Part shown: in pieces, positions 762 to 16,313 of the stretch
How positions within the stretch are numbered: the stretch's first letter is position 1
How the letters are laid out: each line of letters opens with the position of its first letter
Source: a virus
Strand: one strand, 5' to 3'
Length of the DNA: 25,916 nucleotides
IMG/VR virus record: IMGVR_UViG_3300008448_000551
Location: 1 to 25,916 of that record
The notes under the pieces: generated by a model
The model's input: the letters and a program-made list of their open reading frames with translations, nothing else
What the model was told of the DNA's origin: nothing
Database searches by the model: none
Made by a program: the position numbers and the translations under genes

Positions 762-1520
762 ATGACACAAATGAAGCACTTTATTACTGACCTTCCAGCG
801 TTTGCAATTGTAGTACGGGGGAACGAGACATCAGAATATTATTATAGCAAAATCGAACCTGTGTGGAAATCGATTGAGATTGATCTGCAACGTGTAGATG
901 CTGTGACACCGGCAACATTACCGGAAGGACCGCTGAAATTTGGCAGGAATACACTTCGTAAGTATACTCGCCTCAATCCAAAAGGAAAAGCGTTTACAAA
1001 CACCGAGAGAGCGGTCTGGTATAGTCATTACAAGCTGTGGTGTAAATGTATTGATATGGATGAGCGTATTTTGATCATGGAGCATGATTGTGTTCCTGTT
1101 TTTCTAGAAAAGCTTTGGTATACCGACGACCTTCTTTTTAAGAGTTTTGATAAGGGTGCACTTGGTTGTTATACTATTACACCTGAGATTGCAAAAATGT
1201 TTAAAAAGCATCTTGAAGGTAACTACATTATTACAATGGGTCCTTTGGGTACGCTTGTTAATTTGGTTTACACTGTTGAAAACGATAAGACCAATCGTCG
1301 TTGGAATTTAATTGAGGGTGTTGATAATAGATATGATCCAGGATGCACTCAAATCATTCATTCAAAGTTTGGAACAACTATTCAACACTACAAAGGAACT
1401 GAAATGGAGACTGTCAAAAACCTTCCGCAGTTTGGATATTACATACAAATAGACGACCTACCAAACCAATTGAGTGTGGATATATTGAAGGCCAACTGTA
1501 GGGTACTAAAACATGGATAA
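762..1520 (+). CDS. Glycosyltransferase, family-25-like
   Basis: A 252-residue protein. Residues 78-113 (FTNTERAVWYSHYKLW...ILIMEHDCVPV) match the core of family 25 (LPS-type) glycosyltransferases, where a GExGCxxSHxxxW segment precedes the EDD metal/nucleotide-sugar motif; here that motif is EHD (107-109). By family it would transfer a sugar from a nucleotide sugar to a glycan or protein acceptor. It is one of few rightward genes and overlaps the following dioxygenase by 8 nt (ATGGATAA), so the two are translationally coupled. No clear ribosome site precedes ATG 762; ATG 771 is an alternative. The acceptor is unknown: host surface glycan, virion protein or modified DNA are all possible. Confidence 0.65.
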   Translation: MTQMKHFITDLPAFAIVVRGNETSEYYYSKIEPVWKSIEIDLQRVDAVTPATLPEGPLKFGRNTLRKYTRLNPKGKAFTNTERAVWYSHYKLWCKCIDMDERILIMEHDCVPVFLEKLWYTDDLLFKSFDKGALGCYTITPEIAKMFKKHLEGNYIITMGPLGTLVNLVYTVENDKTNRRWNLIEGVDNRYDPGCTQIIHSKFGTTIQHYKGTEMETVKNLPQFGYYIQIDDLPNQLSVDILKANCRVLKHG

Positions 1521-2106
1521 GTGGATCCAAATGGGAAAAATTGACCCTGATGATTTACAAATTATTCTTAGCGAATGTAATCCATTGTTTGCTAATGATA
1601 AGCGTTTTGGGATGAGTAGTATTTCTTCAAAAGATCCTGAGAAAATTAAAAACATTAGGTCATCGCGAAGTTTTTTTCCTTTACCTAAACAAACGAGCCA
1701 GACGTCTCAAGTCGCATTTTTTATTTTAGAAGACTACTTCAAGACTTTAGGGGTGAGGTTCGAATGTCAATACCCACAAATCCAATTAATTAAATATGTG
1801 GATGGTGACTTCTACACATGGCACACAGACTTGACTAGTAGGGAAGGAGATGTTCGCTTAATTTCCATGTCTATTACACTAAACAAAGAGTTTAGCAGTG
1901 GTGGACTTCTTGTAAGGAGCAGAACAACCAAAGAAGAGGTTTCTCTTGCTAACGAGGCAGGGGCCTATGCTATATTCACATCACTACACGAGCATACCGC
2001 ACTACCCGTCACAGGCGGTGAACGCAGAGCAATCACGTTTTGGTTTATGTCCAATAAAACGGAATTACAGCGAATGCAAAGTCAGCTAAAAAAACAGCCC
2101 CTGTAG
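1513..2106 (+). CDS. 2OG-Fe(II) dioxygenase, PKHD/prolyl-hydroxylase type
   Basis: A 197-residue protein with a full 2-oxoglutarate/iron site: HxD at H104/D106 (YTWHTD), distal His at about H161 and the 2OG-binding Arg at 171-172 within HTALPVTGGERRAITFW, the usual C-terminal signature of PKHD-type hydroxylases. It should hydroxylate a peptide or other substrate using O2 and 2OG. It overlaps the glycosyltransferase upstream by 8 nt. Its 3' end overlaps the terminator of the convergent gene at 2119. Hydroxylation followed by glycosylation of the same substrate is an attractive idea (inference). It is distinct from the two other dioxygenases in the window. Confidence 0.85.
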   Translation: MDKWIQMGKIDPDDLQIILSECNPLFANDKRFGMSSISSKDPEKIKNIRSSRSFFPLPKQTSQTSQVAFFILEDYFKTLGVRFECQYPQIQLIKYVDGDFYTWHTDLTSREGDVRLISMSITLNKEFSSGGLLVRSRTTKEEVSLANEAGAYAIFTSLHEHTALPVTGGERRAITFWFMSNKTELQRMQSQLKKQPL

Positions 2107-9736: not shown

Positions 9737-10501
9737 TTACACCTGGTACCTTGAGTCGGCCGCGGCAGTAGCAACCCTTGCATCAAATGCAGGAGTACGC
9801 AGACCTGTAATTGTGATATTCGGTCTTGGATCCCTGCTAATGTTTGCTGTACTATGCGGAACGTTCAACGCATCGAAAATATGAACGTCACCAGCATGCC
9901 ATTGATGAAGAACACAATTTCCGTAGGTCATAAGCTGTCCAGGTTCCCAGTCTGCTAGTGTAATGACCATCCTTACAATCCTTGTAGGATCAGTTGGATT
10001 ACGGTGCCATAACTTATCAATATGGGTTCCAAAGAATTGTCCGGGCCACTGTACGTGCGCACGATAGGATGGCTTCTCCAAACACCAATAATCGACCATA
10101 GCTTTAATTTTAGGAAACTGGTCTAGATAATTTTCTAAAACAAGATTAGTTTGTTCAATTTTATCTAATCCGTGTGCTACTCGATCGTAATGTTCTTGCT
10201 CTGCCATGGGATTTTTTCCTGCAGGGAAGCCCGGCCGTAGACTTTGTTTAGTCTGCTCATCCCAACCTAGATCTTTTGACTTCTCAATGATTTTTATAAC
10301 GTCATCAGACCAATCACCAACGAAGCGCCCTAACTTGTGATACCATTCACCCTCATGTTCTTCTTTGAACTTATCAAAATGATAGTTGCTAAATGTCTTT
10401 GAGTAATCGTAATTGCTTTTATAATTTTTGCCATCTTGGTGATTGAAATCTGCCGGTAAACTTTTAAATTTTACTCTGTCTACGTATTGATTAATATCCA
10501 T
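9737..10501 (-). CDS. 2OG-Fe(II) dioxygenase (second type)
   Basis: A 254-residue protein. The C-terminal half carries the 2-oxoglutarate/iron core: FGTHIDKLW with H160/D162, distal H216 in NVPHSTANISRD, and a 2OG-binding Arg (R226) in DPRPNITITG. The N-terminal 140 residues are rich in aromatic and charged residues and have no recognised fold. It resembles phage-encoded 2OG oxygenases of aquatic myophages. The substrate is not predictable; protein or nucleic-acid hydroxylation are both known for the superfamily. GGAG lies 6 nt before ATG 10501. It sits in an operon of small accessory proteins. Confidence 0.8.
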   Translation of the reverse strand: MDINQYVDRVKFKSLPADFNHQDGKNYKSNYDYSKTFSNYHFDKFKEEHEGEWYHKLGRFVGDWSDDVIKIIEKSKDLGWDEQTKQSLRPGFPAGKNPMAEQEHYDRVAHGLDKIEQTNLVLENYLDQFPKIKAMVDYWCLEKPSYRAHVQWPGQFFGTHIDKLWHRNPTDPTRIVRMVITLADWEPGQLMTYGNCVLHQWHAGDVHIFDALNVPHSTANISRDPRPNITITGLRTPAFDARVATAAADSRYQV

Positions 10502-14212: not shown

Positions 14213-14241
14213 ATTATACAATAAAACAATAACCAGGTCAA
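14213..14241 (-). promoter_or_regulatory. Consensus sigma70 promoter for 14179-13610
   Basis: Leftward TTGACC (14241-14236), 17-bp spacer, TATAAT (14218-14213). The AAGGTTATTA block starts 5 nt upstream of -35, the short-distance arrangement also seen at 2541. Confidence 0.92.
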
Positions 14242-14262
14242 CTGTAAGGTTATTACGGGGGC

Positions 14263-14282
14263 AGTAGCTATTTCTAGCTACT
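14263..14282 (-). other. Perfect 8-bp hairpin with GAAA loop
   Basis: AGTAGCTA (14263-14270) and TAGCTACT (14275-14282) pair perfectly; in leftward RNA the loop is GAAA, a stable tetraloop. It lies 10 nt past the stop of the C-depleted gene (14293-14622), but the bases after it are GCCCCCG, not a T tract. It could be a 3'-end stabiliser or processing site rather than a normal terminator. Confidence 0.7.
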
Positions 14283-14292
14283 ATCTTTTATA

Positions 14293-14622
14293 TTACAATT
14301 TCAAATAAAAATAAACATAATATTCTTCTTCATTTAAAGCTTCATATACTACTTTATTATCTTCAACCCAACTACTACAATACTCTTCATAATGATCTTT
14401 ATAATCATCATCACCATCAATTTCTATATTCTCTTTAATCAACTCATCTTTATCTTTATATTCTAATTCATTACTCTCACCAATATACTCAATCTCTTCA
14501 ACAATATTTCTACTACCTAAAAATACCTTATACAAACCACTCTTCTCAAATTCTTCAATACCAAAAAAACTAATATCACTAATAAACTCAAAATCAACTT
14601 CAACCAATTTAACTTTTAACAT
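14293..14622 (-). CDS. Hypothetical protein with near cytosine-free sense strand
   Basis: A 109-residue acidic, aromatic protein (MLKVKLVEVDFEF..., IEIDGDDDYKDHYEEY, EEEYYVYFYLKL). No family recognised. The sense strand has two C in 330 nt (at 14339 and 14394). No C occurs from 14395 to 14664, which covers most of the gene and its whole leader. The protein has no Pro, Thr or Gln, one His, one Ala, one Arg (AGA) and one Cys (TGT), so amino-acid choice follows the base constraint. It has its own promoter (14668-14696), an AAAGGA site and a 3' hairpin. An intact frame with regulatory signals argues for a functional gene. The transcript could form almost no G-C pairs. Confidence 0.8.
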   Translation of the reverse strand: MLKVKLVEVDFEFISDISFFGIEEFEKSGLYKVFLGSRNIVEEIEYIGESNELEYKDKDELIKENIEIDGDDDYKDHYEEYCSSWVEDNKVVYEALNEEEYYVYFYLKL

Positions 14623-14667
14623 TTAATTTCCTTTTTAAAATTTTAACTTTTTTTCAACTTATAAGCT

Positions 14668-14696
14668 ATTATAAGTTATTTTGACAAACACGTCAA
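14668..14696 (-). promoter_or_regulatory. Sigma70 promoter for the C-depleted gene
   Basis: Leftward TTGACG (14696-14691), 17-bp spacer, TATAAT (14673-14668). The spacer-to--35 region holds a TTGAC/GTCAA inverted repeat (14681-14685 and 14692-14696). The expected transcript start is near 14661, just after the last upstream C (14665). Confidence 0.87.
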
Positions 14697-14885
14697 CTTT
14701 AAATTTAATAAGCTTCAACTTAGATGTGATACTTTTGCTCTAGTTGCCAACTCGTTCAATATCGAAGATAATGGGGGCATGATTCGAAGCAACAGCGGGG
14801 TGGACGGCAAGAGCGGACTACTGAACATCTATGGGTAGCATCACCCAGTTGACCTACTAAACCGTAAGGTTATTAAAACGCGTTG
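14697..14885. other. Divergent intergenic region with a stop-free peptide frame
   Basis: This lies between leftward and rightward promoters. Rightward, codons from 14701 to a TAG at 14836-14838 are open for 45 sense codons. From about 14722 they read like ordinary protein (RCDTFALVANSFNIEDNGG, then MIRSNSGVDGKSGLLNIYG), and this part is more GC-rich than the flanks. The only in-frame ATG is 14779, preceded by GGGGG. A small stem (TGGGT/ACCCA, 14832-14847) follows. It may be a gene remnant or a 19-residue ORF. No tRNA was recognised. Confidence 0.35.
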
Positions 14886-15500: not shown

Positions 15501-15537
15501 GCTACTAGCCCCAGAGACGGGGCAAAGTAGCACTTTT
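15501..15537 (+). terminator. Terminator-like hairpin after the rightward operon
   Basis: Nested stem directly after the TAA at 15499: outer GCTACT/AGTAGC (15501-15506, 15526-15531), inner GCCCC/GGGGC (15508-15512, 15519-15523), then ACTTTTG. The short T tract makes it a moderate terminator. Its 3' side shares bases with the first 39-bp repeat. Confidence 0.65.
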
Positions 15538-15639
15538 GTGTTCAAAAAGATTTAGCTGGGTCAAAGTGACACTTTTGTGTTCAGAATATTTTAAAAGTAA
15601 CAAAGTAGCACTTTTGTGTTCAGAATGGTTCTGAAAGTA
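15523..15639. repeat. Three tandem 39-bp direct repeats (iteron-like)
   Basis: Units start at exactly 15523, 15562 and 15601. The conserved core is CAAAGTAGCACTTTTGTGTT, with TCAGAAT after it in units 2 and 3. Each core contains the dyad CAAAGT-AGC-ACTTTTG (unit 2 reads CAAAGTGACACTTTTG). The last 13 bp of each unit vary. The region is non-coding. Confidence 0.85.
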
Positions 15640-16284: not shown

Positions 16285-16313
16285 ATTATACTCTATATTG
16301 TCTATCCGGTCAA
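16285..16313 (-). promoter_or_regulatory. Consensus sigma70 promoter for 16035-16277
   Basis: Leftward TTGACC (16313-16308), 17-bp spacer, TATAAT (16290-16285). Upstream of -35 it reads AAAAAGCCTATG, almost the same as at the 23317 promoter (AAAAAGCTATG), a second class of upstream sequence. Confidence 0.92.

Follow-up and report, generated by a model that had tools for sequence, protein, structure and literature searches.

A nearly cytosine-free transcription unit in a phage genome and its C-depleted counterparts in other phages and mobile elements

A 330-nt gene on the minus strand (14293-14622) of a 25.9-kb virus record, analyzed here over its full 25,916 nucleotides and hereafter called the window, has two cytosines in its sense strand (A123 C2 G78 T127), and the depletion takes in the whole transcription unit, not merely the reading frame. 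C-poor counterparts elsewhere show that the gene is one of a wider set. A C-poor homolog at 34% identity in another phage, the restriction of the loss to the sense strand, and the mixture of bases that stand in place of C speak for selection against C. We propose that its RNA was purged of C by selection because C in RNA is penalized during infection, an explanation that we hold with roughly even confidence.

The C-free transcription unit of the window

The window encodes, among others, a DUF6433 protein, an AAA ATPase, and a PhoH-like protein, on account of which we read it as part of what is probably a large T4-like phage. The features of the C-free gene and its surroundings are as follows:

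14691..14696, minus strand: -35 box TTGACG of the gene's own promoter (11/12 consensus positions, spacer 17)
14668..14673, minus strand: -10 box TATAAT (consensus match)
14395..14664, minus strand: 270-nt stretch without C in the sense strand (G absent on the plus strand)
14629..14633, minus strand: ribosome-binding site AAGGA, from its sequence
14293..14622, minus strand: C-free gene (2 C in 330 nt) for a 109-aa acidic protein (31 D/E, 11 K/R), homologous to L052:1358-1711(-)
14263..14282, minus strand: 3' hairpin AGTAGCTA-GAAA-TAGCTACT, from its sequence, with no T run on the minus strand
14213..14241, minus strand: promoter TTGACC-17-TATAAT, of the same type by its sequence, serving the C-normal downstream genes

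The nearest C on the upstream side is at 14665, past the -10 box and short of the transcription start predicted at about 14661, and from that start to the hairpin (14282-14263) the RNA contains just the two C of the gene, one in a CAT (His) and one in a GCT (Ala) codon. The hairpin is the first point at which C becomes frequent again, with GCCCCC (14262-14257) directly past it. The leader is A-rich, and an Rfam search of the locus returned no match. Near-consensus promoters of the form TTGAC-17-TATAAT recur on the minus strand of the window at 16313, 14696, 14241, 13022, and 11563, and this series is probably an early regulon. Two further repeats were seen in the window, viz., AACYGTAAGGTTATTA near promoters at 14240-14255 and 14860-14875, and a 39-nt sequence (GGGGCAAAGTAGCACTTTTGTGTTC...) present in three tandem copies in a gene-poor region (15519-15635).

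Our recount agrees with the preliminary description of this DNA in its two-C gene, its plus-strand stretch of 270 nt without G, and its protein with no Pro, Thr, or Gln and a single Ala and His. That stretch is the longest G-free run on the plus strand of the window, the runners-up being 61 nt (inside the same gene) and 60 nt, and the second lowest G count of any 330-nt stretch is 29, against 2 here. Measured by the codon use of the 46 other window genes, zero C in the avoidable codons of the 109-aa protein has a probability of 1e-20, and P, T, A, H, and Q together make up 2 of its 109 residues versus 22% in the other genes (P = 6e-10). A 192-nt C-free stretch following an ATG did not arise in any of 100 dinucleotide-shuffled versions of the window. 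Since the C-free state is confined to one gene within the window, whatever advantage it brings must concern that gene in particular.

The GC content of the gene (24%, with about 42% around it) and the C-poor codons of acidic residues would both suit an AT-rich gene for an acidic protein that was acquired by chance from a low-GC donor. However, G is not depleted (78 G vs 2 C), the codon-level probability is vanishingly small, several phages share homologous C-free genes, and AT-rich phages gave weak matches only, which together leave such an origin a very slim chance. The preliminary description also took the transcript to be nearly unstructured, a supposition for which we found no support beyond composition: the 400-nt transcript folds slightly more stably than its dinucleotide shuffles (z -1.83), and selection for loosely folded RNA was rejected on this basis.

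C-free islands in other phages

We scanned viral contigs and genome contigs with a pattern comprising a -10 box, a ribosome site, an ATG, and 120 C-free bases, which matched 19 stretches in the former and 20 in the latter; the window gene, which could have been taken for a single curiosity, thereby falls into a wider class. More than a dozen other phage contigs carry C-free islands of 290-1959 nt with 0-7 C, set in flanks of approximately 10-25% C. They include the following:

L041: 1929 nt, 1 C
L043: 923 nt, 3 C
L045: 720 nt, 1 C
L049: 967 nt, 0 C
L050: 1493 nt, 0 C
L051: 742 nt, 1 C
L052: 1218 nt, 7 C
L054: 1959 nt, 1 C
L055: 561 nt, 1 C

Small genes are arrayed in rows within the islands, and ribosome sites accompany many of them; the leaders and intergenic DNA are likewise devoid of C. 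In the window and in three islands of contigs L055 and L109, the C-free stretch begins at the promoter start site. Across 57 ORFs (21.8 kb) 61 C are left, and P, T, A, H, and Q account for about 0.5% of the residues. We define the class by a sense-strand C content below about 2% that extends over gene, leader, and intergenic DNA, G and the flanks being normal, and the window gene fits this definition. Pattern matches in L069, L074, L079, L065, and L078 were set aside as simple repeats or generally AT-rich DNA. A promoter-anchored version of the pattern with a strict -35 box gave no further match, and a 100-nt C-free run was found in 0 of 19 related viral records (about 1 Mb).

An RNA-level, sense-specific depletion that includes leaders might also be read as escape from Rho-dependent termination of foreign or untranslated transcripts, given that Rho loads on C-rich RNA. 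Yet Rho needs several C, and 0 C in 1493 nt is far stricter than this; cyanobacteria, which to our knowledge lack Rho, still have C-poor genes, and the A-poor genes described below would not be covered, so that we regard Rho escape as very unlikely. The near-total loss instead makes each single C seem costly, a stricter requirement than either loose structure or Rho escape would impose.

The clearest relative of the window protein is a 117-aa protein encoded at 1358-1711(-) of L052 within the 1218-nt island, which shows 34% identity over 117 positions (E=2.6e-10 with composition correction); the match scores 44.7 bits, and the maximum among 500 shuffled queries is 26.6 bits. Members in L055 and L045 are weaker relatives that share a common GVY....GSRGE core, and the phage of L045 is closely related to that of the window (PhoH 80%, AAA 61%). 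C depletion is thus conserved in diverged homologs, with the proviso that the islands were found by a C-free pattern, which biases both the frequency of the class among phage families and its apparent conservation upward and may miss C-normal relatives. Protein searches free of this bias (exact peptides in viral contigs, phages, and plasmids) recovered no C-normal relative of the family: the exact-peptide search of viral contigs and the plasmid protein search gave no homolog of the window protein, and the phage protein searches gave nothing or matches with E of about 1 only. Among profile libraries, the best PHROG hit (E=0.0057, to an unnamed family) covers part of the protein and is not significant, the best Pfam hit (E=0.08) is below the cut-off, and PADLOC has no match. 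Structure prediction was unusable, with a pLDDT of 39 from the single sequence and 42 from a four-sequence alignment.

The same promoter and ribosome-site pattern applied to the other bases in viral contigs matched 19 C-free, 5 G-free, and 0 A-free stretches, the last being a weak zero since A-free genes need not have this promoter. The G-free control scan detected leaders and 5' ORF parts in four viral contigs (L143 319-525, L144 9295-9648, L146 3174-3521, and L147), where the leader and the first 45-60 codons lack G; normal G follows in L144 and L146, whose G-free-start genes adjoin a terminase-like gene. These G-free starts weigh against the selection proposed here. As a separate observation, the C-free island of L106 (1980-2923) lies between direct repeats GCGCGAATAAGAATGATTCTTATTTAGA, one at each end; immediately before the L055 island stands a C-normal ORF (L119 9624-9830) to which the 68-aa C-free ORF of L106 is similar.

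Which strand is depleted and what takes the place of C

The C-free gene runs opposite to the PhoH and AAA core genes in L045 and in the same direction as them in the window, and the methyltransferase and endonuclease of a Flavobacteriaceae element (see below) are C-poor each in its own sense; both arrangements indicate that C loss follows the gene. Depletion of one DNA strand regardless of gene direction, as expected of replication-strand GC skew, was not what we found, with one exception: an antisense ORF of contig L046 (8-298), possibly a gene, is depleted of G instead, with 6 G among its 291 nt, and this would speak for a rule at the level of the strand there.

The bias toward the sense strand, its onset at the transcription start, and the totality of the loss would each suit a strong mutator, such as transcription-coupled C deamination or another C-directed activity on the coding strand, an alternative that the preliminary description had raised. 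The replacements argue otherwise. At codon position 2 the window gene has 53% A and 32% T, whereas the other window genes have 37% A, 19% C, and 27% T; the corresponding values for the phage islands are T 33%, A 46%, and G 22%, and plain C-to-T change would predict about 46% T. In C-free resolvases, compared with eight C-normal plasmid resolvases, Val takes the place of Ala in 1 of 16 cases and Ser that of Thr in 6 of 12, and all four Gln are retained; the deaminase pattern of Ala to Val, Thr to Ile, and Pro to Leu or Ser did not appear. Residual C often sits on unavoidable or catalytic codons. A and G as well as T have taken the place of C, a pattern that, with the position of the remaining C, favors selection acting on the C of the transcript over both C-to-T mutation and a low-GC donor. 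With the A-rich leader and the need for a second mutator to explain the A-poor genes, strand-biased mutation is already largely contradicted, and we consider it improbable. Selection for a C-free transcript, as the preliminary description had suggested, gains from the C-poor diverged homologs, the tie to the sense strand, the inclusion of leaders and intergenic DNA, and the start of several islands at transcription starts.

C-poor serine-recombinase elements and the rarity of the class in cells

Contig L046, an 8.4-kb viral contig (1-8409), is nearly C-free throughout, with 33 C in 8393 nt (0.4% C on one strand). Its products include a 592-aa large serine recombinase, a resolvase of 233 aa, and a 562-aa, polymerase-like protein without family assignment. 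The Flavobacteriaceae isolate LSUCC0859 harbors an integrated element of about 7.8 kb (contig 5, L100, 8403 to about 16200) that combines the L046 gene set with an MvaI-like restriction enzyme and a methyltransferase. These last two genes, which are only partly depleted (methyltransferase, plus strand, 8.2% C; endonuclease, minus strand, 6.9% C), are perhaps recent arrivals. C-normal plasmid relatives of the recombinases reach 26% (large) and 37% (small) identity. Searches of 397 genomes of the family with the LSUCC0859 polymerase-like protein gave no second C-free relative, and the one weak match (G379) is without a C-free gene. Among 781 cyanobacterial and Bacteroidota genomes, five contain a GGA-N6-ATG with a C-free sequence behind it (173 nt in total), and as four of these look like simple repeats and one is the real LSUCC0859 element, the class is rare in cells.

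A strand without C has no G:C-containing palindrome and hence no restriction site of that kind, and protection at the DNA level would accord with the MvaI-like restriction-modification pair and with an L046 that is C-free along nearly its entire length. Against this, a 400-nt island cannot shield a phage genome with normal C elsewhere, and a boundary at transcription starts is meaningless at the DNA level; we accordingly think it most doubtful that restriction shaped these genes.

C-poor oxygenases and A-poor neighbors in cyanobacteria

A 2OG-Fe(II)/AlkB-like oxygenase gene of Synechocystis salina has 2 C in 465 nt, both in the codons of its two conserved His residues, which we read as iron ligands. 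Six more cyanobacterial homologs (45-50% identity), recovered by an unbiased protein search, have 0.6-7.6% sense-strand C, as against 19-25% around them, whereas more distant homologs have ordinary C (11-22%). The depletion therefore arose within a C-normal family and was kept in a diverged clade of seven C-poor members. At six cyanobacterial loci (S. salina L102, where the A-poor gene lies at 9755-10423, and L160-L164) the C-poor oxygenase gene (0.4-7.6% C) is accompanied by an A-poor SLOG/DprA-like gene, in which A makes up 1.7-6.3% of the ORF versus 27-31% of the locus; the SLOG assignment is by motif reading, with Pfam DNA_processg_A at E=0.077 in one member only. The two depletions covary (Spearman 0.99, n=6, related sequences). 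The SLOG/DprA-like proteins end in QLSLF or QLSLL (QLSLFA in S. salina), a terminus resembling a possible sliding-clamp motif.

An A-poor gene beside a C-poor one implies a rule of the form 'this gene must lack this base', and suggests, as the simplest reason for such pairs, that the product attacks the base that its gene omits. A gene that leaves out the base depleted or modified by its own or its partner's product would stay expressible meanwhile; C-free genes would then encode C- or CTP-directed enzymes and A-free genes A- or ATP-directed ones. The tight covariation at the six loci favors such self-exemption, and a purely external C-directed agent leaves the A-poor neighbor unexplained. However, the phage islands showed no A-free gene, the C-free set takes in recombinases and possible replication proteins for which attacking C would serve no purpose, and the SLOG call has the limits given above. 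We consider self-exemption unlikely and, as it fails for the C-free recombinases, we weight an external attack on C higher for the window gene. Equally unlikely, in our view, is its generalization to a whole category of phage and mobile-element genes that each leave out a single base, the one that the gene's own or its partner's enzyme destroys or poisons. C is the one base required by neither start nor stop codons nor ribosome-binding sites, and this would account for C-free genes being the most complete and A-poor genes a near-complete second kind.

A possible penalty on C in RNA

Returning to selection against C in the RNA of the window gene, we envisage that something in the infected cell penalizes each C in RNA. 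Candidate agents would be CTP depletion, a chain-terminating CTP analogue (the product of viperin), a C-specific ribonuclease, or a C-modifying enzyme. If the 14293-14622 gene has to be transcribed, or its RNA to survive, under that penalty, selection at the RNA or NTP level would strip the affordable C from the transcript base by base. The gene would be a monocistronic phage gene, probably expressed early, and its product, which is small and acidic and belongs to a fast-evolving family, would most likely be a counter-defense or host-takeover factor. More broadly, base-depleted genes in unrelated phages and bacterial mobile elements suggest that some agent in the cell penalizes single bases in particular RNAs. 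If true, cells or phages are at war over single nucleotides in RNA, and C-free genes would give a sequence signature for locating the weapon. Natural genes and near-whole mobile elements that do without one base, and hence without five amino acids, are undescribed in the literature that we searched: no published account of C-free genes was found in open PMC papers, a scope that excludes preprints and most subscription papers.

Relation to known systems

In sequence, the recombinases of L046 and LSUCC0859 are ordinary large serine recombinases and small resolvases; they differ from those of other large serine recombinase elements in having nearly C-free genes and in apparently working with about 15 amino acids. 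Diversity-generating retroelements and hypermutation systems likewise impose a base-specific asymmetry on a defined gene segment, but no reverse transcriptase or repeat pair was seen at the window locus, and here one base is lost with the protein function conserved. Prokaryotic viperins (pVips), which make ddhCTP and related chain terminators, offer a closer parallel, in that only C-free RNA would escape ddhCTP, and this fits the strict loss of C. The window gene itself is not a viperin, however, and neither of the two cell genomes, LSUCC0859 and Synechocystis salina, has a viperin above the curated cut-off, a negative that says little about the hosts of the phages. Finally, the Alc protein of T4 terminates transcription on cytosine-containing DNA by sensing unmodified C in DNA, so that there too the presence of C decides the transcription of a template during phage infection. 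In the window, unlike in the Alc system, the template strand keeps a C opposite each G, and the coding strand and the RNA alone lack C.
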